Shown piece by piece: positions 8,287 through 30,350 of a stretch of 35,071 nucleotides of DNA. Source of the DNA: Halanaerobium salsuginis (GTDB taxonomy: Bacteria > Bacillota > Halanaerobiia > Halanaerobiales > Halanaerobiaceae); contig NZ_FOTI01000030.1 of the NCBI RefSeq assembly GCF_900114545.1, forward strand, positions 1-35,071. The letters are read 5' to 3'. Numbering within the stretch: position 1 is the stretch's first letter; each line of letters opens with the position of its first letter. The translations under genes and the position numbers were made by a program. A model generated the notes under the pieces. That model saw only the letters and a program-made list of their open reading frames with translations, ran no database searches and was not told where the DNA came from.

Positions 8287-9396
8287 TTATCTGGGCCAGC
8301 GTTCTTCTTTAGCCGGTAAAAGTGGAAACTTATTATGAGGCTCTGACTGATACCAATAAGCTACAGTTGCCACATCATCTTGTCTTTCAAATAGACCTTT
8401 ATTACTAACTCCAATCTGCTGCATTGTCACCCTGATATTTTTCTGAAAACGAATTGGATCTAAAATATGCCAGCGATAAAAACCTCGCATGGGAGGACAA
8501 TCATCATTATAGTAAAGACTAGAAGCCAGCTTGTCTGTTTTTGAATAATAGGGATAACCTAAAAAAGGAGTTGAATAAGTATTTTCAACTGTTTTACCGT
8601 TTTCTTGACTGGCAAAACTCCAGGCCCCTCCAAAATAATCTTCAGTTCCTGTTCCACAGATAGTTGGATATTCCTGATCATCGTCGAGATAAAACTTAAG
8701 CTCTCCCTCTCCCCACCAATATCTTTCGAGAGTTGTTAAAGCAAGATATGTGCCAACATACTGACCTTGTCCGCTTACATTATCTAAAATAACATAGTCT
8801 TCCTGTATTTTAGTAATTTTTTCACGCCGCCACTGAGCATGAAAATATGCTGTCTCTGCTGGCAGTTCAGTCGGTAAACTATAGTCTATTTGATAGAAAA
8901 AAGCTGGAATATCAACTTCATGTTGATTTTCAATTGTTATTTTAGCCTTTTTACGAAAAGGCATACTAAAATAGGAATTCATACCTCTAGTTGGATTAAC
9001 AACTATTGGCAGTGAGTTAACAAGTGCTCCTCTGGCAAAACCATTACAGAAAAAATCTCCTAGAGGAGTTTCAACAGAAGGGTTTTCTTCCCCATCCCAA
9101 TACATGCGCAATACTAGATCTCTCAGCACAAAAAAATCTGCTTCAGTTTTATCAGTAACTGTTAGCCAGATATGATTTATTATCCCCGGGCCATCAATCT
9201 CAGCTAAAACTCTTGTTTCACCTGCTTTAATTTTTTTCAAGCAAGGAGAACCCTTCCGTGACTCACCTAATTTACTGGCAGCTTGACCACCTTTTCCTTT
9301 TTCTCCCCGGGGGTTTTCAGCGGTAATTGATCTACTCTTACTGTTATTCATTAAAGGGAGAGTACCTAAAGTATTTAAAAATGGATTATTTAACAT
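8287..9396 (-). CDS. GH172-family glycoside hydrolase (DUF2961)
   Basis: This 369-residue protein has no signal peptide and is therefore cytoplasmic. It has the DUF2961 blocks: GPGIINHIWLTV near 69-80, the jelly-roll segment MYWDGEENPSVETPLGDFF, WWGEGELKFYLDDD at 227-240 and GTGTEDYFGG at 248-257. E230 and E252 are the likely catalytic pair by analogy with the difructose-dianhydride enzyme that founded GH172; other members are arabinofuranosidases. It is the last gene of a sugar ABC-transporter operon, so it probably acts on the imported fructose- or arabinofuranose-containing sugar. The start at ATG 9396 follows AGGAGTGAAGCA. The exact substrate cannot be read from sequence. Confidence 0.87.
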   Translation of the reverse strand: MLNNPFLNTLGTLPLMNNSKSRSITAENPRGEKGKGGQAASKLGESRKGSPCLKKIKAGETRVLAEIDGPGIINHIWLTVTDKTEADFFVLRDLVLRMYWDGEENPSVETPLGDFFCNGFARGALVNSLPIVVNPTRGMNSYFSMPFRKKAKITIENQHEVDIPAFFYQIDYSLPTELPAETAYFHAQWRREKITKIQEDYVILDNVSGQGQYVGTYLALTTLERYWWGEGELKFYLDDDQEYPTICGTGTEDYFGGAWSFASQENGKTVENTYSTPFLGYPYYSKTDKLASSLYYNDDCPPMRGFYRWHILDPIRFQKNIRVTMQQIGVSNKGLFERQDDVATVAYWYQSEPHNKFPLLPAKEERWPR

Positions 9397-19530: not shown

Positions 19531-20865
19531 TTAATCTAACTCACTTGCTGTAAAATTATCTGTCTCTGAAAAACTGTTCAATAACTCTAAGTAACTTGTT
19601 TTAGTCAAAACAGGTTGATGATTATTAATAACCTGTCTGGCTGTTTCTGCATTCTTAAAAAGTAAATCAATTATTGTCATAGCTAATGCTTTAACGGGTA
19701 AAATATAGGCTGTTTCTGGATCAATTATCTTAAAATTTCTTGTGTGGAGATCTCCAGTTACACCACCAAAAAAAGGATGTAAAACAGGCATTAAATGAGA
19801 TATATCTCCAAAATCAAAAGAACCCGTAAAATCTCCTCCAACTGTAATTTTAGCAGCAGATTCTAAATTAAGCAGATTATCCTGCAAAAGCTGATCAAGT
19901 TCTTGATTATTTAATAAAGGTAAATAGCCAGGAATATCTTTAATTTCTATTTCAGCCCCAACAGCAAGTGCCCCTGCTTTTAAAGCCCGGTTTACTTTCC
20001 GATTAGCATTCTTCATAGCACTAATATTTCTGGCTCTAACATAACTTTCCAGATGAACATCTGCTGGTACAATATTAACAATATCCCCCCCTTTAGTGAT
20101 TATAGGATGAACTCTGACACGATCCTCATCAGTAAAAGTCTCTCGTTGAGCATTAATATTATTAATCGCAAGAACTGCTGCATTAAGGGCGTTAATTCCT
20201 TTTTCAGGAGCTGAACCAGCGTGTGATTCTTGACCTTTAATTCTTATTTTTTTACCAATGAATCCGTTACCTTTAGGTCCAATTAAAGCTTTTTTATCCT
20301 CAAGGTTAAGAGAATGCATCATCACTGCTAAATCAACCTGATCAAAATAGCCTCTTTTTACTAATTCCTGTTTACCACCAAAAAAACTTATTTTACCAGA
20401 TTCCTTCAGCTGATCTCGGTAGGCAAGTTCGATAAACTCTTCGGCTGGGGTCGAAATAAACTTAATACTACCGCTTAATTCGGTTTCCAGTCCAGCCTTT
20501 TTTAAAGCAAGTGCAACACCATACATCACACTAGACTGCACATTATGACCACAGGCATGAATTGCCTTAGTTTCTGGATCTGCATCAGGATGTTCAGCAC
20601 AGGTAACTGCATCTAGCTCTCCTAAAACAGCCAGGCAGGGCCCAGAATTTTGCATTGTTAGTTGAGCATTAATCCCTGTTATATCCTGATTATATTGATA
20701 ATCTAAATCAAGCTCCGCAAAAGCTGCTGCCATAATTTCAGTTGTTTTATTCTCTTTATATCCTAACTCGGGATTTTGATAAATTTCTTCTCCAACTTTA
20801 ATAATTTCTGAGCGATGTTGGTCAATAATTTTTAGTACACGATCTTTTATTTCGCTTTTTTGCAA
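19531..20865 (-). CDS. M20-family amidohydrolase (peptidase M20/AbgB-like)
   Basis: The protein has 444 residues from TTG 20865, which is chosen because AAGGAAG lies 8 bases upstream; the longer frame from 20910 has no such site. Metal-ligand motifs are LGELDAVTC (Asp), HACGHNVQSS (His) and STPAEEFIE (Glu pair). The dimerisation domain starts near GPKGNGFIGKKIRIKGQESHAGSAPEKG. The family hydrolyses N-acyl or peptide-like amides; AbgB-type and aminoacylase-type enzymes are the nearest named relatives. It lies 81 bp downstream of two membrane-protein genes that probably import its substrate. Confidence 0.88.
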   Translation of the reverse strand: MQKSEIKDRVLKIIDQHRSEIIKVGEEIYQNPELGYKENKTTEIMAAAFAELDLDYQYNQDITGINAQLTMQNSGPCLAVLGELDAVTCAEHPDADPETKAIHACGHNVQSSVMYGVALALKKAGLETELSGSIKFISTPAEEFIELAYRDQLKESGKISFFGGKQELVKRGYFDQVDLAVMMHSLNLEDKKALIGPKGNGFIGKKIRIKGQESHAGSAPEKGINALNAAVLAINNINAQRETFTDEDRVRVHPIITKGGDIVNIVPADVHLESYVRARNISAMKNANRKVNRALKAGALAVGAEIEIKDIPGYLPLLNNQELDQLLQDNLLNLESAAKITVGGDFTGSFDFGDISHLMPVLHPFFGGVTGDLHTRNFKIIDPETAYILPVKALAMTIIDLLFKNAETARQVINNHQPVLTKTSYLELLNSFSETDNFTASELD

Positions 20866-20946
20866 GTAAAACACTTCCTTAATAGAAATAAGTAGCAATA
20901 AAATTAACAAAAACTAACTATAATAAGTAATTTAAATTTAAAATAA

Positions 20947-21411
20947 TCAAATAATCCCCTGAATTTTTAGTACTATTTGAGCAACAATTGCTGACCCAAA
21001 GAAAGTACCAATAAAAACCGCTATTGCAACAATAAATACTTTCCAGCTCAATCTTTTTAAGTCTTCAATTTTATTACCAACTGAAATACCCGCAAAAGCA
21101 AGAATAGGAGTTGTTGTACCTAAAAAGTTAACCTGATTAGTATATTTTAAAAACAACTCAGCTGTTGGCATAAAAGGCATACTTAAAATTAAAGCAATTA
21201 AAGATGCCCAGGCAAAAGCAGGAAACTTAAGAGCAGGAAAACTATCTTTAATTACCAGAGCAATAAAAGCTATTAAAGCTATTATTATCATTCCTGGTAA
21301 GGAAGAAATAATTTGCATACCATAACCAATTCTTTGACCAATCAAAATCATTACAGAAATAACAGCCAGCATTTTTAAATACTCAAATCCTCTATCTAAT
21401 TTCAGGCTCAT
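20947..21411 (-). CDS. Small membrane partner of the DUF3100 transporter
   Basis: The protein has 154 residues with about four to five membrane segments (for example IVAIAVFIGTFFGSAIVAQIVL at the end). It contains NFLGTTTPILAFAGISVGNKIEDLKRLSWK, a conserved-looking loop. I do not know a named family. Its ATG overlaps the TAA stop of the DUF3100 gene by one base (TAATG), and GAGGTGAAAAATA precedes it, so the two proteins are made together and probably form one transporter. Confidence 0.8.
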   Translation of the reverse strand: MSLKLDRGFEYLKMLAVISVMILIGQRIGYGMQIISSLPGMIIIALIAFIALVIKDSFPALKFPAFAWASLIALILSMPFMPTAELFLKYTNQVNFLGTTTPILAFAGISVGNKIEDLKRLSWKVFIVAIAVFIGTFFGSAIVAQIVLKIQGII

Positions 21412-22268
21412 TATTTTTCACCTCGATTTCTTTTATCAAAAACTGGTGATAGCTTATCATACATAAAATTAACCAGTGGTAAGCCTAGAAAAACAACTGA
21501 ATAAAGCCCAGTTACTCCTGTCAGCATATTACTAGTAGCAGCATAAGCAAGAATACTATCTTTCATTTCTGGTACTGCTTCTGCTAGTGCACCTGAAGCA
21601 GCTGCCATCATACTTCCGCTTCCCATTCCACTTGCCATTGCAAGAGCGAGTGGGTGCAGTCCAGTTGCTACGGCAAATCCACCCAGCAAACCAAAAAAGA
21701 TAGTTCCAAAAACTGTTCCCATTAAATAAGTTCCTAACACTCCTGTTCCTTCTGGTGAAGAAATTCCATACTTTTCTCCAATAACTCCCAGCGTAGGTTC
21801 TCGACAAATACTGGCAGTTGCTCCAACTGCTTCTCTTCCCATACCTAAAAAGAGTGCCAACGGTAAAGCAATAAAAACTGTACCTAGATTACCAAGTTCC
21901 TGCAGCAAAAATGCTGGTCCTGATTTAATTACCTGGACAATATTTGGGCCAACTAAGGTCCCATATTTGACTCCCAACGGCAATAATGCAATCATCACAT
22001 AAGAACCAGCTGTTTTTACTTCAGTCATCGAAATAAGATCTCTCAGCTTAGTAATTTTTGCTCCTAATAAATCGGGAGTAATAATAATTCCAATTATAAC
22101 AGCAAACAACATTGGCAGCAAAACAACCTGGCCCGGACCAATTGAAAAAGTCTTTGTTCCAATCATCTCAGTAATAACTACAATTACTAAAACCGTTAGA
22201 TAAAGCTTTACTAATGAAGCAGGTTGTTCAGTCATTTCTAATTTACTTCTTTTCTTCTCTTTACTCAT
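21411..22268 (-). CDS. DUF3100-family membrane protein
   Basis: This 285-residue protein has multiple membrane segments. The conserved-looking loop GMGREAVGATASICREPTLGVIGEKYG (about 150-176) and glycine-rich MASGMGSGSMMAAASGALAEA resemble substrate-binding or re-entrant loops. DUF3100 proteins are often found next to M20 amidohydrolases, as here, and are thought to be transporters for the amidohydrolase substrate; that role is inference. ATG 22268 follows GGGGGAGA. It is the first gene of the transporter-partner-M20 operon. Confidence 0.82.
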   Translation of the reverse strand: MSKEKKRSKLEMTEQPASLVKLYLTVLVIVVITEMIGTKTFSIGPGQVVLLPMLFAVIIGIIITPDLLGAKITKLRDLISMTEVKTAGSYVMIALLPLGVKYGTLVGPNIVQVIKSGPAFLLQELGNLGTVFIALPLALFLGMGREAVGATASICREPTLGVIGEKYGISSPEGTGVLGTYLMGTVFGTIFFGLLGGFAVATGLHPLALAMASGMGSGSMMAAASGALAEAVPEMKDSILAYAATSNMLTGVTGLYSVVFLGLPLVNFMYDKLSPVFDKRNRGEK

Positions 22269-22423
22269 TAAAAAATCTCCCCCTTATAGCAATAGACTAG
22301 TTGTATTATATTTTTCTGTCTGAATAATGTCAAGCAAATTTAACCAGCATCTGGAATATCCTTGTATACTTCGTTAGAATAGTGATATCATCTGTAAACT
22401 ATACCTTAATTTGGTAAAAAAAA

Positions 22424-22450
22424 AAGCCAATCGCTATTAGCGATCGGCTT
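22424..22450 (-). terminator. Rho-independent terminator after the MIF-like gene
   Basis: On the minus strand aagccgatcgct / agcgattggctt forms a 12-bp stem (one G-U pair) with a 3-base loop, followed by a long T run (plus-strand A run 22416-22425). It ends the ARH-MIF unit. Confidence 0.9.
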
Positions 22451-22470
22451 TCTAATTTTATTAACCAATT

Positions 22471-22809
22471 TTAGAATGTACTACCCTTCCAACCCCACAT
22501 TGAACCAGACACTGAGGCAAACTCGATATAAATTCGATCGGGACTTATTTCTAATTCTGTACTTATAAAATCACAAATTACAGCTGATAATTGACTGGTA
22601 GCTGTTTCTTCTAAGCCAATACTTTTTAATTCAACAAAAGCTGCTGGTTCAGTTGAACCAGCAAAAGTCAGGCTGAAATTACTTTCCAGAGCTGTCATTA
22701 TATAAGTTTCTGGTTTACCAAGTTCAGCAGCTAATTTAGCTGATAATTTTTTTAATAAAGCAGTCTCATCAGCTAGTTCTTGATTAGTTTGTAGTTTTAA
22801 ATAAGGCAT
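22471..22809 (-). CDS. MIF/tautomerase-superfamily protein (macrophage migration inhibitory factor homologue)
   Basis: The 112-residue length matches MIF. Pro2 follows the initiator Met (MPYLKLQTN) and would be the catalytic N-terminal proline of the tautomerase. Other MIF blocks are LAAELGKPETYIMTALESN, RIYIEFASVS and the C-terminal GWKGSTF. Bacterial MIF-like proteins catalyse phenylpyruvate-type tautomerisation; the physiological role is unknown. It lies 68 bp after the ADP-ribosylglycohydrolase gene on the same strand and before a terminator, so the two are probably co-transcribed. Confidence 0.88.
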   Translation of the reverse strand: MPYLKLQTNQELADETALLKKLSAKLAAELGKPETYIMTALESNFSLTFAGSTEPAAFVELKSIGLEETATSQLSAVICDFISTELEISPDRIYIEFASVSGSMWGWKGSTF

Positions 22810-22877
22810 TCAATTATCACTCCTTAAATTAATCTAGTTTCGACTCGTTACTTATAATATTCAATTTACCAATTAAA

Positions 22878-23948
22878 CTATAAATGAGCAGTCATCCGTT
22901 CAGTTAAATCTAAAAGTTCTTCCTGATCATTTAAACCATCTAGAAAACGCTGTGGTATCCCCTGCAGACCAACTTGAGCGCCAATTAAAGCTCCTGTCAA
23001 CATTGTCCTCACCTGATTTTGACCGCCTCCGTTTAGGGCATGTAATACTCCTGCTTCAAAATTATCTTTATAGCGCGCACTTAAGTAATAAACTGCCGGC
23101 AAAACATGATAAATAGCACAGGGCATTCCATAAACAAGCGAAACTTTCCAGGCGGGCTCAATTGTAATTCCTTCGTCTTCCCAGGCCCGGGCCATATAGG
23201 CAGGGCTCATCAAACCATCGGGAGAAGAAAATAAGGTCATTGACTCAGCAGCAGTTCTTGCTTCTGTTGGTGGCTTAAGATCAGCTGCAGTAATTTTATT
23301 ATAAGGCAATTCTCCACCAGCTACTTTATTCATCAATTTTTTACTAATCTCTTTATCAAGCTTTTCACCCTGAATTAAAACTGCCAGCAGAGCGCTAAAT
23401 GCTGTTGTCAAGGAAGCAATCAAATCATCGCTCTGGGTTAATAATGTATTAGAGGTAACACTTAAGGCAAGTTTTTCTAAATTATTAGCATAATAAACTG
23501 CTGTTGCTATATTTCTTTCTAAAGCTTCTGTTGTATCAGCATTACTGGCTACTTGAGACCAATCTTTACCCTGCTTAACTCGCTGCTTCCAGAGATAACG
23601 CATCGACTGACTTGTATAACCTCCCGGGCCACCCATTGGCTTACCATCAAGTTCAGGTAAAAACTGCTGATCCATCATCTCACAAAAAGCCTGTTGATCA
23701 TAGCCTGACTCTGCTAATAAATTTTCCGCCAGCAGTTTCATTAAAATTGCTGACTGCGAAATATCTCCTGCCTTTAAATTACCATGATAACGATTTGGTT
23801 TAGGATCTGTATAATCACTAATCCAGTCACCATATTCTGCTCTCATCTTTTCTAGATCATAATACCAGTGAGGTCCAACACCTAAGGCTTCTCCAATAAA
23901 AGCTCCCATCATAGCACCTTTAGCTCTTGCTTTAAGATCAGTACTCAT
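22878..23948 (-). CDS. ADP-ribosylglycohydrolase-family protein with altered metal sites
   Basis: This 356-residue all-helical ARH/DraG-like protein begins KGAMMGAFIGEALGVGPHWYY, the usual family start. In active enzymes two Mg2+ are held by an early GDDT motif and a late GGDTDT motif. Here the early motif is GDISQSA (61-67) and the late one is GGGQNQV (307-313), so most of the expected acids are missing. It may act without the usual metals, bind rather than cleave ADP-ribose, or have another substrate. ATG 23948 follows GAGGAGGTCATATTA. It is paired with the MIF-like gene. Confidence 0.8.
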   Translation of the reverse strand: MSTDLKARAKGAMMGAFIGEALGVGPHWYYDLEKMRAEYGDWISDYTDPKPNRYHGNLKAGDISQSAILMKLLAENLLAESGYDQQAFCEMMDQQFLPELDGKPMGGPGGYTSQSMRYLWKQRVKQGKDWSQVASNADTTEALERNIATAVYYANNLEKLALSVTSNTLLTQSDDLIASLTTAFSALLAVLIQGEKLDKEISKKLMNKVAGGELPYNKITAADLKPPTEARTAAESMTLFSSPDGLMSPAYMARAWEDEGITIEPAWKVSLVYGMPCAIYHVLPAVYYLSARYKDNFEAGVLHALNGGGQNQVRTMLTGALIGAQVGLQGIPQRFLDGLNDQEELLDLTERMTAHL

Positions 23949-24002: not shown

Positions 24003-24656
24003 CTAACTGCCAAATTCTCTCATCTTTTCTAAATTATCATTTTTACCCATTAAAACTAATTTATCACCTTCCAGAATTTTATCATCAGCGCCTGGAGAAA
24101 TATGCAAATTTTCGCCTCTTTTGATAGCCATTACATTAACATCAAAATTAGCTCTAAATTCTAGTTCTTTTAAGGTCCTGCCAAACATTTTATCAGTTGC
24201 CAGAATTTCAATAACTCCATATTCTGGAGCAAATTCTATATAATCAAGCACATTTGAAGAAATAAGATTATGAGCAATTCTGGCTCCCATGTCACGCTCC
24301 GGATAAACAATACGATCTGCTCCAACTTTGGTTAAGACTTTACCATGTAAGCTATCTGGAGCTTTAACAATTACATAGGGTAAGTTTAATTCCTTTAAAA
24401 TTAAGGTACATAAAATATTAGCAGAAACATTATCACCAATACTAACTACTGCTACATCAAAATTTCTAACCCCTAAAGTTTTTAAAGCATCCTCATCAGT
24501 TGCGTCTGCTTCAACAGCATGAGTAACCTGAGTAGAAATTGATTGAACTTTTTCTGCATCACAATCAATTGCCAGCACATCATAGCCACTTTCTGCCAGA
24601 GTTGTAGCAACACTGCTCCCAAAACGTCCTAATCCAATTACAACAAATTGTTTCAT
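24003..24656 (-). CDS. ktrA: Potassium channel/uptake regulatory protein KtrA/TrkA
   Basis: The protein has 217 residues. An RCK_N (TrkA_N) Rossmann domain with GLGRFGSSVA at 8-17 and a ligand acid in LAIDCD is followed by RCK_C (about 135-217). It gates a KtrB-type K+ transporter; no ktrB lies in the window. The gene is preceded by a c-di-AMP riboswitch and terminator, so it should be turned off at high c-di-AMP. In KtrC/A proteins the RCK_C domain can also bind c-di-AMP. ATG 24656 follows GGAGGTTATAGATT. Confidence 0.92.
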   Translation of the reverse strand: MKQFVVIGLGRFGSSVATTLAESGYDVLAIDCDAEKVQSISTQVTHAVEADATDEDALKTLGVRNFDVAVVSIGDNVSANILCTLILKELNLPYVIVKAPDSLHGKVLTKVGADRIVYPERDMGARIAHNLISSNVLDYIEFAPEYGVIEILATDKMFGRTLKELEFRANFDVNVMAIKRGENLHISPGADDKILEGDKLVLMGKNDNLEKMREFGS

Positions 24657-25058: not shown

Positions 25059-25334
25059 CTAATCTGTAAATTTAGCTAATACTTCCATTAGCTCATCAAT
25101 AACTGCATCTCCTTCTTCATTTTTAACTGCCCGCTGTACACAACCATGAACATGTTTATCAAGTATTTTTAAAGCAACCTTTTTTAAACCACCCTGGATT
25201 GCTCCTACCTGGTGTAGAATATCTACACAATATTTATCTTCTTCAATCATACGCTGAATCCCACGAACCTGACCCTCAATTCTTTTCAATCTATTAGTAA
25301 GATCTTTTTTATCAAGATCACATAAAGAATTCAC
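25059..25334 (-). CDS. csoR: CsoR-type copper-sensing repressor
   Basis: The protein has 91 residues from GTG 25334, placed 7 bases after AAGGAGGT; the longer frame from TTG 25358 would start upstream of that site. It has the DUF156 four-helix layout (LTNRLKRIEGQVRGIQRMIEEDKYCVDIL...). The C-H-C copper ligands are present: Cys in DKYCVDIL, and His and Cys in KHVHGCV (H-x3-C). Cu(I) binding releases DNA. It lies 38 bp downstream of copA on the same strand. Three matching operator sequences occur in this island. Confidence 0.93.
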   Translation of the reverse strand: MNSLCDLDKKDLTNRLKRIEGQVRGIQRMIEEDKYCVDILHQVGAIQGGLKKVALKILDKHVHGCVQRAVKNEEGDAVIDELMEVLAKFTD

Positions 25335-25372
25335 TTCAATTACCTCCTTCTGCTTCAATATTTCAGTTGAGT

Positions 25373-27847
25373 TTATTTTTTATAAGCTGGCTGTACATTT
25401 GCTTTTCTCAACATATTAGCATTTGATACAACTGTAATTGAACTACCGGCCATTGCCATTTCTGAAATAACAGGGTGCAATAAACCTAAAATAGCAATTG
25501 GTATTGCAATAATGTTATAGAAGAAAGCCCAAAATAAATTCTGTTTGATCTTCTTAAAAGTAGCCCGAGACAATTTAACAGCTGTTATTACAGCAGATAA
25601 ATCTCCTCTAACCAATGTTATATCAGAAGATTCAATTGCAATATCTGTTCCAGTTCCAATTGCAATTCCAACATCAGCTTGAGTCAGAGCTGGTGCATCA
25701 TTAATTCCATCTCCTACCATAGCAATAATTCCAAATTTTTCCTGCAGTTCTTTTATTTTATCAACTTTACCATCAGGTAAAACTTCAGCAACTATATGAT
25801 CAATTCCAACTTCAGCACCGATTGCCTCAGCTGTCCGCTGATTATCTCCAGTAATCATTGCTGTTTCTAATCCTAATTCTTTCAATTCTTGAATTGCTTT
25901 AATAGAATCCTCTTTCAGGGCATCAGCAACAGCAACAATCCCCAGCAGTTTATTATCAGCTGCTACCAGCATAGCAGTTTTAGCTTCTTTTTCTAGTCTC
26001 ACCATTTCTGCTTCGAGTTCTTGAATTTCTATGCCTGCTTCTGTTAATAATCTTCTGCTGCCAACAAGTACAGACTGACCTGCTAAATCAGCTTTTACTC
26101 CTTTTCCTGTTACAGCAGTAAAGTTTTCTGGCTGTTCAAGCTTAAGTTCTCTATCCTGAGCGCCCTTAACAATAGCAGCTCCCAATGGATGTTCTGAACC
26201 AGTTTCTACAGCTGCAGCCAGGGCAAGAAGTTGCTCCTTATTAACACCAGCAGCTGTTACTAGATCTGTTACTTCTGGTTTCCCCTTCGTGATCGTTCCT
26301 GTTTTATCAAAGACCACTGTATGAACATCTTTCATTGTCTGGATCGCTTCACCTTTTCTAATTAAAACTCCATTTTCTGCTCCAATACCGCTGCCAACCA
26401 TCAAAGCTGTTGGAGTAGCAAGGCCAAGAGCACATGGGCAGGCAATAACTAATACAGCAATAGTAGCAAAAATTGCTAAAGTTATTGTTCCTAGCTCTGG
26501 ACTAACCCAGGGAAGAAAACTCTGCGCCCAAAAACCAACCTGACGAAAACTGTCAGTAAATACCAACCAGGATAAAAAAGTTAAAACAGCAATTATTAAA
26601 ACTGTTGGAACGAAAATACCAGTAATTTTATCAGCAAATTCCTGAATAGGAACTTTTGTTCCCTGAGCTTCTTCTACCATCTTTACTACCTGAGATAAAA
26701 AGGTATCCTTACCAACTTTAGTAGCTTCAACTTGAATTAAACCATTTTGGTTAACTGTTGCTCCAATAACTTCGTCCCCTTCACCTCTATTAACTGGCAT
26801 AGATTCACCAGTTGCCATTGATTCATCAATTGTTGTTTTACCAGTGATAATCTTGCCATCAGTCGGGATCTTTTCACCAGGTTTAACCAGCATAATATCA
26901 CCAGGCTGAACATTTTCAATAGCAATTTCTTTTTGTTCACCATCGACAATAATAGTAGCTGTTTTAGCTCCTAATTCTAACAATTTTTTTATTGCCTGAG
27001 AAGCTCTTCCTTTAGCAGTTTCTTCTATATAACGACCCGTTAAATGAAAAGCCATAATCATTGCTGAAACTCCAGCATAATTAGCAATTGGAGTAAAGAA
27101 AACTGCTGGCCCAGTTATAAAGGCAGCTCCAGTTCCTATTGCAATTAAAACATCCATATTTGAACTACCATGGCTAACTGCTCGATAGGCTGTAACAAAT
27201 GTTTTTCTACCATAAACAAATAAGGGAGGTATAGCTAAAATGATCATACCAAGATTAAAAATCGTCTCATTAGGCCAGGCAATTCCAAATACCATTTCTG
27301 GAATCATCCAGAGCATGATCGGAATTGTAAAGGCCCAGGTACCCCACATTTTATGTTTAGCAAGAGCTAATTTTTCTAAATCATCATCAGCTGAATCAGA
27401 AGTTGTTGTTTCATCATCAGCAAATCTACTTAATTCATAACCAGAATTCTTAACTATTTTTCGAAAATCATTCCGATCAAGTACAGCAGGATCATATTCA
27501 ACACTACCTTTCTCAGTAGCAATATTTACATTAGCCTGATAAACTCCAGCACTTTTATTTAGAGCCTTCTCTACAGCTGCTGAACAGGAAGCACAGCTCA
27601 TTCCATCGATATCAAAAGTTATTTTTGCCTTTTCTTCCTTAACATCATAACCACTTTTGCGCACTGCAGAAATTAAGTCTGATTTTGCTATCTGATCTGC
27701 ATCATAATCTACATAGGCTTTTTCAGCAGCAAAATTAACCTGTGCTTCTTTAACTCCTGCTGTCCGATTAAGGGCTTTTTCTATAGCCTGAGCACAAGCT
27801 GCACAGCTCATACCCTTTAACTGCAGTGTCTCTTTTTTAACCATCAT
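25373..27847 (-). CDS. copA: Cu+-exporting P-type ATPase CopA (CPC class)
   Basis: The protein has 824 residues. Two N-terminal heavy-metal domains carry GMSCAAC (C15, C18) and GMSCASC (C85, C88). The P1B-1 core includes TGES at 346-349, the membrane CPC motif at 470-472 (VIACPCALGLATP), DKTGT at 514-518 (phosphorylated Asp) and SEHPLG. It pumps Cu(I) out of the cytoplasm. ATG 27847 follows GGAGGTATAATTA. The upstream copZ and small Cys-Cys peptide and downstream csoR form one copper unit. Confidence 0.96.
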   Translation of the reverse strand: MMVKKETLQLKGMSCAACAQAIEKALNRTAGVKEAQVNFAAEKAYVDYDADQIAKSDLISAVRKSGYDVKEEKAKITFDIDGMSCASCSAAVEKALNKSAGVYQANVNIATEKGSVEYDPAVLDRNDFRKIVKNSGYELSRFADDETTTSDSADDDLEKLALAKHKMWGTWAFTIPIMLWMIPEMVFGIAWPNETIFNLGMIILAIPPLFVYGRKTFVTAYRAVSHGSSNMDVLIAIGTGAAFITGPAVFFTPIANYAGVSAMIMAFHLTGRYIEETAKGRASQAIKKLLELGAKTATIIVDGEQKEIAIENVQPGDIMLVKPGEKIPTDGKIITGKTTIDESMATGESMPVNRGEGDEVIGATVNQNGLIQVEATKVGKDTFLSQVVKMVEEAQGTKVPIQEFADKITGIFVPTVLIIAVLTFLSWLVFTDSFRQVGFWAQSFLPWVSPELGTITLAIFATIAVLVIACPCALGLATPTALMVGSGIGAENGVLIRKGEAIQTMKDVHTVVFDKTGTITKGKPEVTDLVTAAGVNKEQLLALAAAVETGSEHPLGAAIVKGAQDRELKLEQPENFTAVTGKGVKADLAGQSVLVGSRRLLTEAGIEIQELEAEMVRLEKEAKTAMLVAADNKLLGIVAVADALKEDSIKAIQELKELGLETAMITGDNQRTAEAIGAEVGIDHIVAEVLPDGKVDKIKELQEKFGIIAMVGDGINDAPALTQADVGIAIGTGTDIAIESSDITLVRGDLSAVITAVKLSRATFKKIKQNLFWAFFYNIIAIPIAILGLLHPVISEMAMAGSSITVVSNANMLRKANVQPAYKK

Positions 27848-27883
27848 TAATTATACCTCCATTTTAAATCAAAATTTATTAAT

Positions 27884-28000
27884 TAAAACTTAACTATTTT
27901 TTTCACTACTACAGCAGTCCGGTGTCTGATTTCCATATTCTTTCTGATTAGCGGAAGCCAATTTATCAATAAATTTTTGCCACCAACTCTTTTTTGCCAT
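27884..28000 (-). CDS. Small Cys-Cys peptide of the copper locus (38 aa)
   Basis: The peptide has 38 residues: it begins MAKKSWWQKFIDKLASANQK and ends ...QTPDCCSSEKIVKF. ATG 28000 has AAAGGATG upstream at a normal distance. The basic-aromatic start, amphipathic helix and DCC pair resemble small putative metal-binding proteins with an LDCC-type motif that I recall from clostridia. It lies between copZ and copA, just after a CsoR-like operator, so it should be induced by copper. A Cu(I)-binding role is inference. Confidence 0.68.
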
Positions 28001-28038
28001 TTTTATCATCCTTTATATTAAAAAATATGATTAAATTT

Positions 28039-28054
28039 ATACCCCTACACTGTA
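28039..28054. promoter_or_regulatory. CsoR-like operator before the small peptide and copA
   Basis: The sequence atacccctacactgta matches the two other sites of the island (tataccccYtacNNtgta pattern). It lies 39 bp upstream of the small peptide start. Confidence 0.7.
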
Positions 28055-28105
28055 AAAGTAAATCTTTTAACTAATAACTAAAAATATTAGTCATGAAAAA
28101 TTTAG

Positions 28106-28315
28106 TTAAACAGTTTTTATATATTCATAACCAGCTTCACTAACTGCTTCTGCTAGCTTGTCATCTGTAACCTCTTTACTTAAGCTAACTACAACTTGAC
28201 CTTGATCAGCATTAGCTTTAGCATCACTAACTGCATCAATTTTTAATAATTCTTTTTCTGTTCTTTTCTCACAGTGTTCACATGACATACCTTCTACGAT
28301 CAGTGTTTTTTCCAT
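28106..28315 (-). CDS. copZ: Copper chaperone CopZ
   Basis: This is a 69-residue single HMA domain with GMSCEHC (C12, C15) and a final GYEYIKTV. It carries Cu(I) to the CopA N-terminal domains. ATG 28315 is preceded by GAGGAGCTG. It has its own CsoR-like operator at 28345-28363. Confidence 0.93.
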   Translation of the reverse strand: MEKTLIVEGMSCEHCEKRTEKELLKIDAVSDAKANADQGQVVVSLSKEVTDDKLAEAVSEAGYEYIKTV

Positions 28316-28344
28316 TTTATATAACAGCTCCTCTTTTTATACAA

Positions 28345-28363
28345 TATACATGTAGGGGGTATA
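28345..28363. promoter_or_regulatory. CsoR-like operator before copZ
   Basis: The sequence tatacatgtagggggtata is the inverted copy of the island motif. On the minus strand it is preceded directly by tataat (28365-28370), a likely -10 element, so repressor binding would overlap the promoter. Confidence 0.75.
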
Positions 28364-28406
28364 ATTATATTATCATTATTTCTAGTCCCTGTCAAAAAAA
28401 TCTTAG

Positions 28407-30350
28407 TTAATTATTATTAAATTTAAGCAGTTTTGCATTGACTGCTACAATAACTGTACTAAGGGACATTAAAACAGCTCCTATAGCAGGTGAAATCATA
28501 ATCCCAAATCCAGCAAGAACCCCGGCGGCAAGAGGAATAGCAAAAGCATTATAACCAGTTGCCCAGAATAAATTCTGAACCATCTTTTTGAATGTTAACC
28601 CCCCAAATTCAATCAATTTTAGAACATCAAGCGGGTCACTTTCGACCAAGATAATATCAGCGGTTTCAGCCGCTACATCTGTTCCTGATCCAATAGCAAT
28701 TCCAATATCTGCTTTGGCTAGAGCTGGAGCATCATTAACACCATCACCAGTCATTGCTACAAAAGCACCATTTTCCTGGAGTTCTGCAACCTTTTTTTGT
28801 TTTTGATCTGGTAAAACTTCTGCAAAAAAGTCATTTAAACCAAGCTCATTACTTACATACTGAGCAGTTTTCTGATTATCCCCAGTTAGCATCTTAACTT
28901 TTATACCTTTATCTTTCAGTTTTTTCACAACCTGATAAGAACTCTCTCTAATTTGATCAGCTAGCCTAACTAAACCTATTAACTGACCAGATTTTAAAAT
29001 AAATACTTCTGTAAATGGTCCTTCTTTTAATGCATCTGCTGGCACTTCAATTTCATTTTCTGTTAAATAACCTGGTGAAACAGCCTTAAACTCTGTATCA
29101 GATATCTTAGCTTTTACACCTTTTCCCTTCATAATTGCAAAGTCTTTAACTTTAAGTAGATCTAGCTCATCACTTTTAGCTTTTTTAATTATTCCTCTCG
29201 CTATAGGATGTTCTGATTCTTGTTCTAAAGATGCAGCATGCCGTAAAATATCTTCTTTACTATAATCTTCTCCAAAACTTACTACAGCTTCTACTCCAAA
29301 TTCACCTTCTGTAAGAGTACCTGTCTTATCAAAAAGAATTGTATCAATTTTACGGGCATTTTCAAAAGCAGTTCTATTTCTAATTAAGAGACCATTTTTA
29401 GCTGCCATAGTGGTAGAAACTGCTACTACTAGTGGAATAGCAAGTCCCAGAGCATGGGGACATGTAATAACCATTACAGTCGCCATTCTTTCAATTGCAA
29501 AAGCAAAATCATTGCTTATTAAATACCAACTTATAAAGGTTAAGACACCAGCTGAAATAGAAATTATTGTCAGCCAGAAAGCTGCTCGATCAGCAAAATT
29601 CTGAGTTTTAGATTTTGCAGCCTGAGAATCCTTTACCATATTAATTACCTGTGATAAATAACTATCCTCACCAGCTTTTTTGATTTCAATTTTTATAGAA
29701 CTATCTCCATTAACTGAACCACCAATAACTTCATCATCTACTGAATGTTCAACCGGTTCTGCTTCACCTGTCAGCATTGATTCATCAATATAAGAATTAC
29801 CTTCATAGATAATACCATCGGCAGGTATCTTCTCACCAGGTTTAATCAGTACTTTATCACCTTTACTTAATTCTTTGATTTTAATTTCTTTAACTTCTCC
29901 ATCAACTAATTTATGAGCCTGATCTGGCATCAATTTTGCTAATTCTTCCAGAGCGTGTGATGCTCCCATAACTGATTTCATTTCTAACCAGTGTCCAAGC
30001 AGCATAATTACAATTAATGTTGCCAGTTCCCAGAAAAAGAAGCGTCCTTCTAAACCAAAAACAACTGCTGAACTATAAAAGTAAGCTACTGAAATTGCCA
30101 GAGCAATTAAAGTCATCATACCTGGATTTTTATTATTAAGTTCATCCTTTAATCCAGTTAAAAAAGGCCAACCACCATAGAAAAATATGATAGTAGAAAG
30201 TATAAACAACAGATAATTACTCCCACTAAATTCTAATTTATAACTCAAAAAACTCTGAATCATTGGCGAAAGTATTAAAATTGGTAATGATATTACTAAA
30301 GAAACTATGAATCTCTTTTTAAAATCTGCTAACATTTTTTGATGATCCAT
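28407..30350 (-). CDS. copB: CopB-type copper P-type ATPase (CPH class)
   Basis: The protein has 647 residues. There is no N-terminal HMA domain; it starts MDHQKMLADFKKRF followed by membrane helices. TGEAEP at 194-199, CPH at 297-299 (VITCPHALGLAIP) and DKTGT at 341-345 mark a P1B-3 pump, a class linked to copper or silver export. It complements CopA, which has CPC. ATG 30350 follows AGGAGGTATTAAAA. A CsoR-like operator lies 37 bp upstream. Confidence 0.93.
   Translation of the reverse strand: MDHQKMLADFKKRFIVSLVISLPILILSPMIQSFLSYKLEFSGSNYLLFILSTIIFFYGGWPFLTGLKDELNNKNPGMMTLIALAISVAYFYSSAVVFGLEGRFFFWELATLIVIMLLGHWLEMKSVMGASHALEELAKLMPDQAHKLVDGEVKEIKIKELSKGDKVLIKPGEKIPADGIIYEGNSYIDESMLTGEAEPVEHSVDDEVIGGSVNGDSSIKIEIKKAGEDSYLSQVINMVKDSQAAKSKTQNFADRAAFWLTIISISAGVLTFISWYLISNDFAFAIERMATVMVITCPHALGLAIPLVVAVSTTMAAKNGLLIRNRTAFENARKIDTILFDKTGTLTEGEFGVEAVVSFGEDYSKEDILRHAASLEQESEHPIARGIIKKAKSDELDLLKVKDFAIMKGKGVKAKISDTEFKAVSPGYLTENEIEVPADALKEGPFTEVFILKSGQLIGLVRLADQIRESSYQVVKKLKDKGIKVKMLTGDNQKTAQYVSNELGLNDFFAEVLPDQKQKKVAELQENGAFVAMTGDGVNDAPALAKADIGIAIGSGTDVAAETADIILVESDPLDVLKLIEFGGLTFKKMVQNLFWATGYNAFAIPLAAGVLAGFGIMISPAIGAVLMSLSTVIVAVNAKLLKFNNN

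Follow-up and report, generated by a model that had tools for sequence, protein, structure and literature searches.

Genes at the locus

The window, i.e., the whole stretch of DNA analyzed (35,071 nucleotides of a contig of Halanaerobium salsuginis), carries two adjacent open reading frames at the coordinates given in the preliminary description; both are intact and lie on the minus strand (Table 1). The first encodes a MIF homologue scoring 82.3 bits with the Pfam MIF model (cut-off 22). The protein begins with MPY, Pro2 being intact as previously described, and this proline following the Met, together with the Pfam score, places it in the MIF family; its nearest solved relative is the MIF of Prochlorococcus (2xcz, 102.2 bits). 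It is an ordinary bacterial homologue of the MIF/tautomerase superfamily. The second open reading frame encodes an ADP-ribosylglycohydrolase (ARH)-like protein, residues 11-334 of which match the entire Pfam ADP_ribosyl_GH profile (positions 1-287 of 287) with 158.4 bits against a cut-off of 26.2.

Table 1. Coordinates of the genes, motifs and hairpin at the locus (positions in the window)
Feature	Positions	Strand	Remarks
ARH-like protein, 356 aa	22878..23948	minus	metal-less ("GGQN") subfamily of PF03747
MIF-family tautomerase homologue, 112 aa	22471..22809	minus	adjacent gene, not a conserved partner
TrkA-type potassium-uptake regulatory protein	24003..24656	minus	next gene upstream of the ARH-like gene, at 54 bp
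Terminator-like hairpin after the MIF gene	22421..22453	minus	15 pairs, T tail
GDISQ, residues 61-65	23754..23768	minus	TDDT slot, first Asp now Gln65
GGGQNQV, residues 307-313	23010..23030	minus	GGDTDT slot, Asp now Gln310, Thr now Asn311
GPHWYYD, residues 25-31	23856..23876	minus	Glu-flap segment, Glu slot now Trp28, His27 adjacent
MPCAIYH, residues 275-281	23106..23126	minus	Cys277, Tyr280 and His281 each in 81/81 sequences

Since the two genes are separated by only 68 bp and a terminator-like hairpin is located 3' of the MIF gene, their co-transcription in the window is plausible; the term "operon partner" used in the preliminary description can be kept to that extent only.

Other genes were found in rows on the minus strand of the window. 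Those encoding a DUF3100 membrane protein, a small membrane protein that matches no Pfam model and an M20 peptidase (19531-22268) resemble a unit for taking up and hydrolyzing an amidated substrate. A CsoR-like regulator and two P-type metal ATPases, as judged from their translations only, occupy positions 25059-30350. The window showed no match with plasmids and one weak match with phages (19% coverage), and no relative of the ARH-like protein was found in viral contigs. An ordinary ARH with intact TDDT and DTDT motifs is encoded elsewhere in the same genome (G000:C45:46308-47117, referred to here as L001), and the metal-less copy is therefore not the only ARH-fold protein of this genome.

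Extent and distribution of the family

Scanning the genome collection with the window protein alone yielded no relatives, and scanning it with an alignment of the genus copies yielded 354. The best 80 of these 354 relatives were kept: four come from Halanaerobium and the other 76 from clostridial, erysipelotrichial, proteobacterial, desulfobacterial/desulfuromonad, campylobacterial, verrucomicrobial and other records. With the family profile, 41 copies in 39 genomes scored at least 590 bits and the next match only 99.6 bits, and the family is therefore sharply bounded. In a quick tree, 29 ordinary ARHs fell on one side of a branch with a support of 100 (several long branches being flagged on the ordinary side), and the window protein grouped with the four Halanaerobium copies (support 96). 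Judging from these sequence comparisons, the metal-less subfamily appears to be discrete and to have a single origin.

The ARH-like gene is present in 8 of the 12 Halanaerobium genomes, and its motifs are kept in all of these copies. Only one of the 149 genomes in the phylum-wide sample around the window's genome carries it, namely the window's own, and the distribution of the family is therefore patchy. The class samples gave 5/274, 45/195, and 2/249 genomes, counts in which the centre genome or previously known genomes are included. Most genomes carry a single copy. Two full-length copies were found in each of two assemblies (L038/L041, which share an accession prefix, and G222, which includes L067). 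In the genome of Nitrosomonas mobilis (G215, that of L057), fragments with stops (C77:18693-19134) occur besides the intact copy and look like a second, decayed copy of the family.

No paper on the metal-less subfamily was found in the open-access literature, a result which proves little given the narrow queries. The passage on other ARG-centred systems (phosphatase, Nudix/WYL regulators) in PMC9503650 and that on ADP-ribosylglycohydrolase genes changing in the cold in PMC6080646 make no mention of the motif described here.

Loss of the metal ligands

The residues occupying the functional slots of the ARHs were mapped by alignment with MJ1187 and with a profile of 29 ordinary ARHs. GDISQ and GGGQNQV had been described as replacing GDDT and GGDTDT: the ligands are indeed absent, but the register was off, the motif lost being TDDT and not GDDT. 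The GEWTDDT stretch of MJ1187 aligns with GDISQSA, T-D-D-T corresponding to S64, Q65, S66, and A67. In the second motif, D-T-D-T falls on Q310-N311-Q312-V313, so that GGDTDT has become GGQNQV. In the profile alignment, the catalytic TH maps on T171-Q172 and has thus become TQ, the slot of DraG Asp97 maps on Y111, and the Glu-flap Glu maps on W28 (this last slot being uncertain by one residue); since the diversity on the family side is low (Neff 2.2), an error of one residue is possible for slots outside the two glycine/aspartate motifs. The GNGxxMR segment of the ARHs reads TTExxER in the family, Arg145 being kept.

These replacements were found throughout the 81 sequences compared (the window protein and the best 80 of the 354 relatives). 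Q65, Q172, Q310, N311, Y111, R314, W28, and H27 are each present in 81/81, as are D31, D138, E141, R145, C277, and H281; D244 and H55 are also invariant. S64 occurs in 80, T171 in 79, and the complete GPHWYYD stretch in 80 of these sequences, and the remaining slots vary (A/S/Q/P/E at 66, G/A at 67, Q/L/M/E at 312). The four aspartate slots are devoid of Asp in all 81. TDDT-like words do occur in five members, at LTQ(S/T)DD(T/S) near residue 172, outside the ligand slot. As a control, 30 ordinary PF03747 loci (high-scoring matches and L001) were collected, 29 of which gave a usable frame; in 25 of these 29, a regular expression detected both a TDDT-type and a DxD[TSN] motif. Computation thus shows that the four Asp ligands, the Glu-flap Glu and the TH His have been lost in every member examined. 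Neither sequencing errors nor pseudogene formation can account for the motifs, which are the same in all eight genus copies and all 81 sequences. One of the 81, a copy in a metagenome-assembled genome of Arcobacter (L040, 5998-7071), has an in-frame stop near codon 61, reflecting either decay or an assembly error.

According to a review (PMC7050489), all the ARH enzymes characterized use a binuclear metal centre and both ions are needed to position the substrate. Since the ligands have been lost and the characterized ARHs need both ions, ordinary ARH chemistry would not be possible in the ARH-like protein. The proposal that the protein cannot assemble the usual two-metal centre in its known form is therefore upheld on alignment grounds, the ligand loss being conserved across the whole subfamily, and the counter-evidence envisaged at the time, ordinary ARH enzymes bearing the same motif, was not found. 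None of the T-D-D-T, GGDTDT and Glu-flap Glu ligands defining the metal-dependent ADP-ribosyl hydrolases is present, and because these ligands were tested and found to be absent, we classify the protein as a member of the ARH fold family (PF03747) and not as one of those hydrolases.

The invariant residues D31, D138, E141, D244, H27, H55, and H281 could in principle form a new metal site, and the protein might then be an ADP-ribosyl hydrolase of the ordinary kind whose ligands have moved or which binds only one metal. We take this to be decidedly unlikely: the slots of the TDDT Asp, the GGDTDT Asp, the Glu-flap Glu, the TH His and DraG Asp97 are replaced in 81/81 sequences, and the protein scores far below the NCBIfam cut-offs of the DraG model (TIGR02662, 40.6 versus 337.05 bits) and the Tri1 model (NF041672, 36.8 versus 490 bits).

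Predicted fold and conservation of the pocket

The AlphaFold2 model based on 66 sequences (pLDDT 92.2, pTM 0.93) shows a complete, all-helical ARH fold, the ligands being found absent by alignment only. In VIA-align, the predicted structure matched MJ1187 (1t5j, Z 36.4, rmsd 2.5 Å over 299 residues), Tri1 (6drh, Z 33.6), ARH3 (2qty, Z 32.2), and DraG (2woc, Z 31.7). MJ1187 is the nearest solved relative in terms of sequence (58.6 bits with a seven-sequence profile), and none of the solved structures belongs to the metal-less subfamily on this basis. The protein has the whole fold and the order of the motif segments in common with the members of PF03747 (DraG, Tri1, ARH1, ARH3, and MJ1187), the Z values with solved members ranging from 25 to 36, and differs from them in the slots described above.

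Among 66 sequences, 72 of the 356 positions are invariant. Within 3 residues of the mapped functional slots, which were chosen from the ARH motifs, 24 of 57 positions are invariant, versus 48 of 299 elsewhere (Fisher p 2.7e-5); the figures were 20/45 within 2 residues (p 6e-5) and 25/81 within 5 (p 0.0065). Because the invariant residues are concentrated near these slots, the ARH pocket appears to have been rebuilt under constraint rather than lost. Cys277, Tyr280, and His281 of the MPCAIYH segment may be new catalytic residues.

The main rival explanation, which we regard as possible though doubtful, is that the protein is a non-catalytic pseudoenzyme whose pocket binds ADP-ribose, NAD, a related ligand or a protein, and which acts as a sensor or scaffold. 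All the catalytic slots have been neutralized, and conserved pockets occur in non-catalytic binders as well. There are also precedents: the fold matches include ARH-fold subunits for which no enzymatic role has been shown, namely mt-SAF23 in ribosome assembly (6sga/9hny) and a subunit of the chloroplast FtsHi motor complex (8xks/8xqw), and ARH2 (ADPRHL1), which shares the ARH fold, has been described as lacking residues critical for activity and is regarded as inactive. These proteins are all eukaryotic, and mt-SAF23, the only one compared in terms of sequence, gave 18.8 bits. The invariant Cys277, His281, His27, Asp31, Asp138, and Glu141, on the other hand, are more suggestive of an enzyme than of a scaffold subject to drift, as is the full-length pairwise identity of 49-94% among phyla.

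The eukaryotic J1-crystallins and selenoprotein J presumably form an ARH-fold branch with an N-terminal HW.YD stretch resembling that of the ARH-like protein. Searches of the open-access literature for this resemblance gave incidental papers only. If it is genuine, the subfamily would be a bacterial branch of a partly known group.

Gene context in Halanaerobium

A MIF gene was identified in 10 of the 12 genomes of the genus, including two which lack the ARH-like gene. Strict adjacency occurs in only one of the eight genomes having both genes, the window's genome, where MIF lies downstream of the ARH-like gene. In five of the seven sister genomes, MIF lies 2.0-3.5 kb upstream, with CorA and nicotinate phosphoribosyltransferase (NAPRT) or similar genes in between; in the other two it is about 11 kb away. 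Outside the genus, the link disappears: a MIF relative was present in the stretches fetched around 3 of the 80 loci, all of which are Halanaerobium, and thus in 0/76 of the others, and none was found in 39 further loci.

The preliminary description suggested that the pair might define a new reaction. It might be argued that the two proteins catalyze consecutive steps on one keto or sugar substrate, since the genes lie 68 bp apart in the window with a hairpin after MIF and are on the same strand, two to three genes apart, in five of the seven sister genomes. We consider this highly improbable given that MIF occurs without the ARH-like gene in two genomes of the genus, that the gene order differs, that CorA and NAPRT intervene elsewhere, and that none of the 76 + 39 other copies has MIF nearby. 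The two-gene system was discarded on the grounds that adjacency is confined to one genome, without any linkage in the loci covered outside the genus; it is in terms of strict adjacency only that the pairing is unique to this strain. The neighbouring MIF gene, which differs from a true partner in having no conserved link with the ARH-like gene, is mostly a local coincidence outside the core function, and at most part of the same stress theme. MIF acts on quinone-like compounds in other organisms, which fits this theme only loosely.

In all seven sister genomes, the direct neighbour of the ARH-like gene is the NAPRT gene (681.9 bits versus an NCBIfam cut-off of 469), which it follows by 37-50 bp where the distance was measured; only the adjacency was recorded in G003, where the open reading frame runs to the end of the contig. 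The end of this contig (L012, G003:C111, about 8600-8649) reads into a stretch whose translation resembles transposase-kit adapter sequence, and this copy therefore has an artificial C-terminus. Seven genomes of the genus have both NAPRT and the ARH-like gene, three have neither, one has NAPRT only, and one, the window's, has the ARH-like gene only: no NAPRT was detected in this 99.9%-complete genome at E <= 1e-30. This pattern is consistent with an NAD-salvage enzyme working beside NAPRT on a by-product of pyridine nucleotides, such as an alpha-anomer or a damaged nucleotide. The case for such a role is based on a single genus, one member of which lacks NAPRT, and no NAPRT was found near the gene in the 76 loci outside the genus or in the 39 further loci, which makes it rather unlikely. 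Since MIF occurs without the ARH-like gene in two genomes and the window's genome has no NAPRT, neither gene is an obligate companion.

Gene context outside the genus

The Pfam neighbour tally, which dealt exclusively with loci outside Halanaerobium, covered 122/145 first and 96/125 second neighbours, one third neighbour also being added by hand; near-duplicates and doubtful short open reading frames were removed by hand. No single partner dominates, and same-strand clusters recur. These include MarR-YceI-FMN reductase-LigB-Pirin-ARH in Arcobacter (L084), MarR-YceI-LigB-SnoaL-ARH in Sulfurovum (L039), and MarR-YceI-isochorismatase-amidohydrolase-LigB-ARH-OsmC/hydrolase-rhodanese/YceI in Geomobilimonas (L094), which together span two phyla; the LigB of L094 passes the NCBIfam cut-off for 4,5-DOPA-dioxygenase. 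In Marinobacter (L107), the ARH gene lies beside a divergently placed LysR-DoxX-GST-LigB set, and the arrangements ARH-YceI-nitroreductase (L086) and WrbA/FMN reductase-ARH (L108) were also found.

The recurrence of these neighbours was tested in 39 further loci, 35 of them belonging to the Geomonas class and four being others, and in control windows placed some 100 kb from them, 19 of 20 of which existed. The 35 were taken from the 45 matches in the class sample, three of those left out being already included and the rest being partial or near contig ends. Eleven stress classes were searched for: YceI, FMN reductase/WrbA, LigB, pirin, OsmC-hydrolase, rhodanese, isochorismatase, DoxX, GST, nitroreductase, and SnoaL. 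At least one of them was present in 21 of the 39 further loci versus 1 of the 19 control windows, and every best match was on the strand of the ARH-like gene itself. An OsmC-hydrolase gene directly follows the ARH-like gene, at 29-66 bp, in 13/39 loci, and a rhodanese gene occurs in 7/39; DoxX, GST, nitroreductase, and SnoaL were not found in these 39 loci. The Fisher p values, 3.6e-4 for the 39 loci and 3.9e-4 for the 36 remaining after removal of repeats, overstate independence, since the lineages are related, the queries came from the earlier loci, and 3 of the 39 repeat earlier ones. Computation thus shows that the gene recurs near oxidant/electrophile-stress genes. This context is lineage-specific: in 18 of the 39 loci, and in the majority of the first 76, the 11 classes are not represented at all, and the Halanaerobium copies have NAPRT and MIF in the place of such neighbours.

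Proposed function and significance

The explanation we prefer, and hold with moderate confidence, is that of a remodelled, metal-independent ARH-fold protein, probably an enzyme, involved in oxidant/electrophile stress, both the enzymatic step and the stress role being inferred. A discrete bacterial subfamily with the ARH fold would have dispensed with the two-metal centre, its pocket being remade at the original site from amide, aromatic, His, Cys, and carboxylate residues. The cavity would be lined with the amides of Q65, Q114, Q172, Q310, and N311, and the chemistry might be provided by the invariant H27, D31, D138, E141, C277, and H281. The ligand would be a small molecule of the nucleotide or sugar type arising in peroxide, quinone or electrophile stress, and the protein may catalyze a metal-independent reaction or, at the very least, bind a ligand. 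More tentatively, the metal-free Cys/His/Asp/Glu site may serve to repair or degrade an adduct that is linked to a nucleotide or sugar and results from quinone, peroxide or electrophile stress, which would be a new reaction for the ARH fold.

The name "ADP-ribosylglycohydrolase" automatically given on the basis of Pfam predicts a metal-dependent activity which the sequences of this family do not support. The family is discrete, conserved and often present in a single copy, and in the Desulfuromonadia the gene often has an OsmC-hydrolase gene directly 3' of it, which makes relatives of Geobacter tractable for knock-out experiments and the study of stress phenotypes. If the pocket is catalytic, this would be a case of an enzyme fold having switched from metal-dependent to metal-free chemistry.
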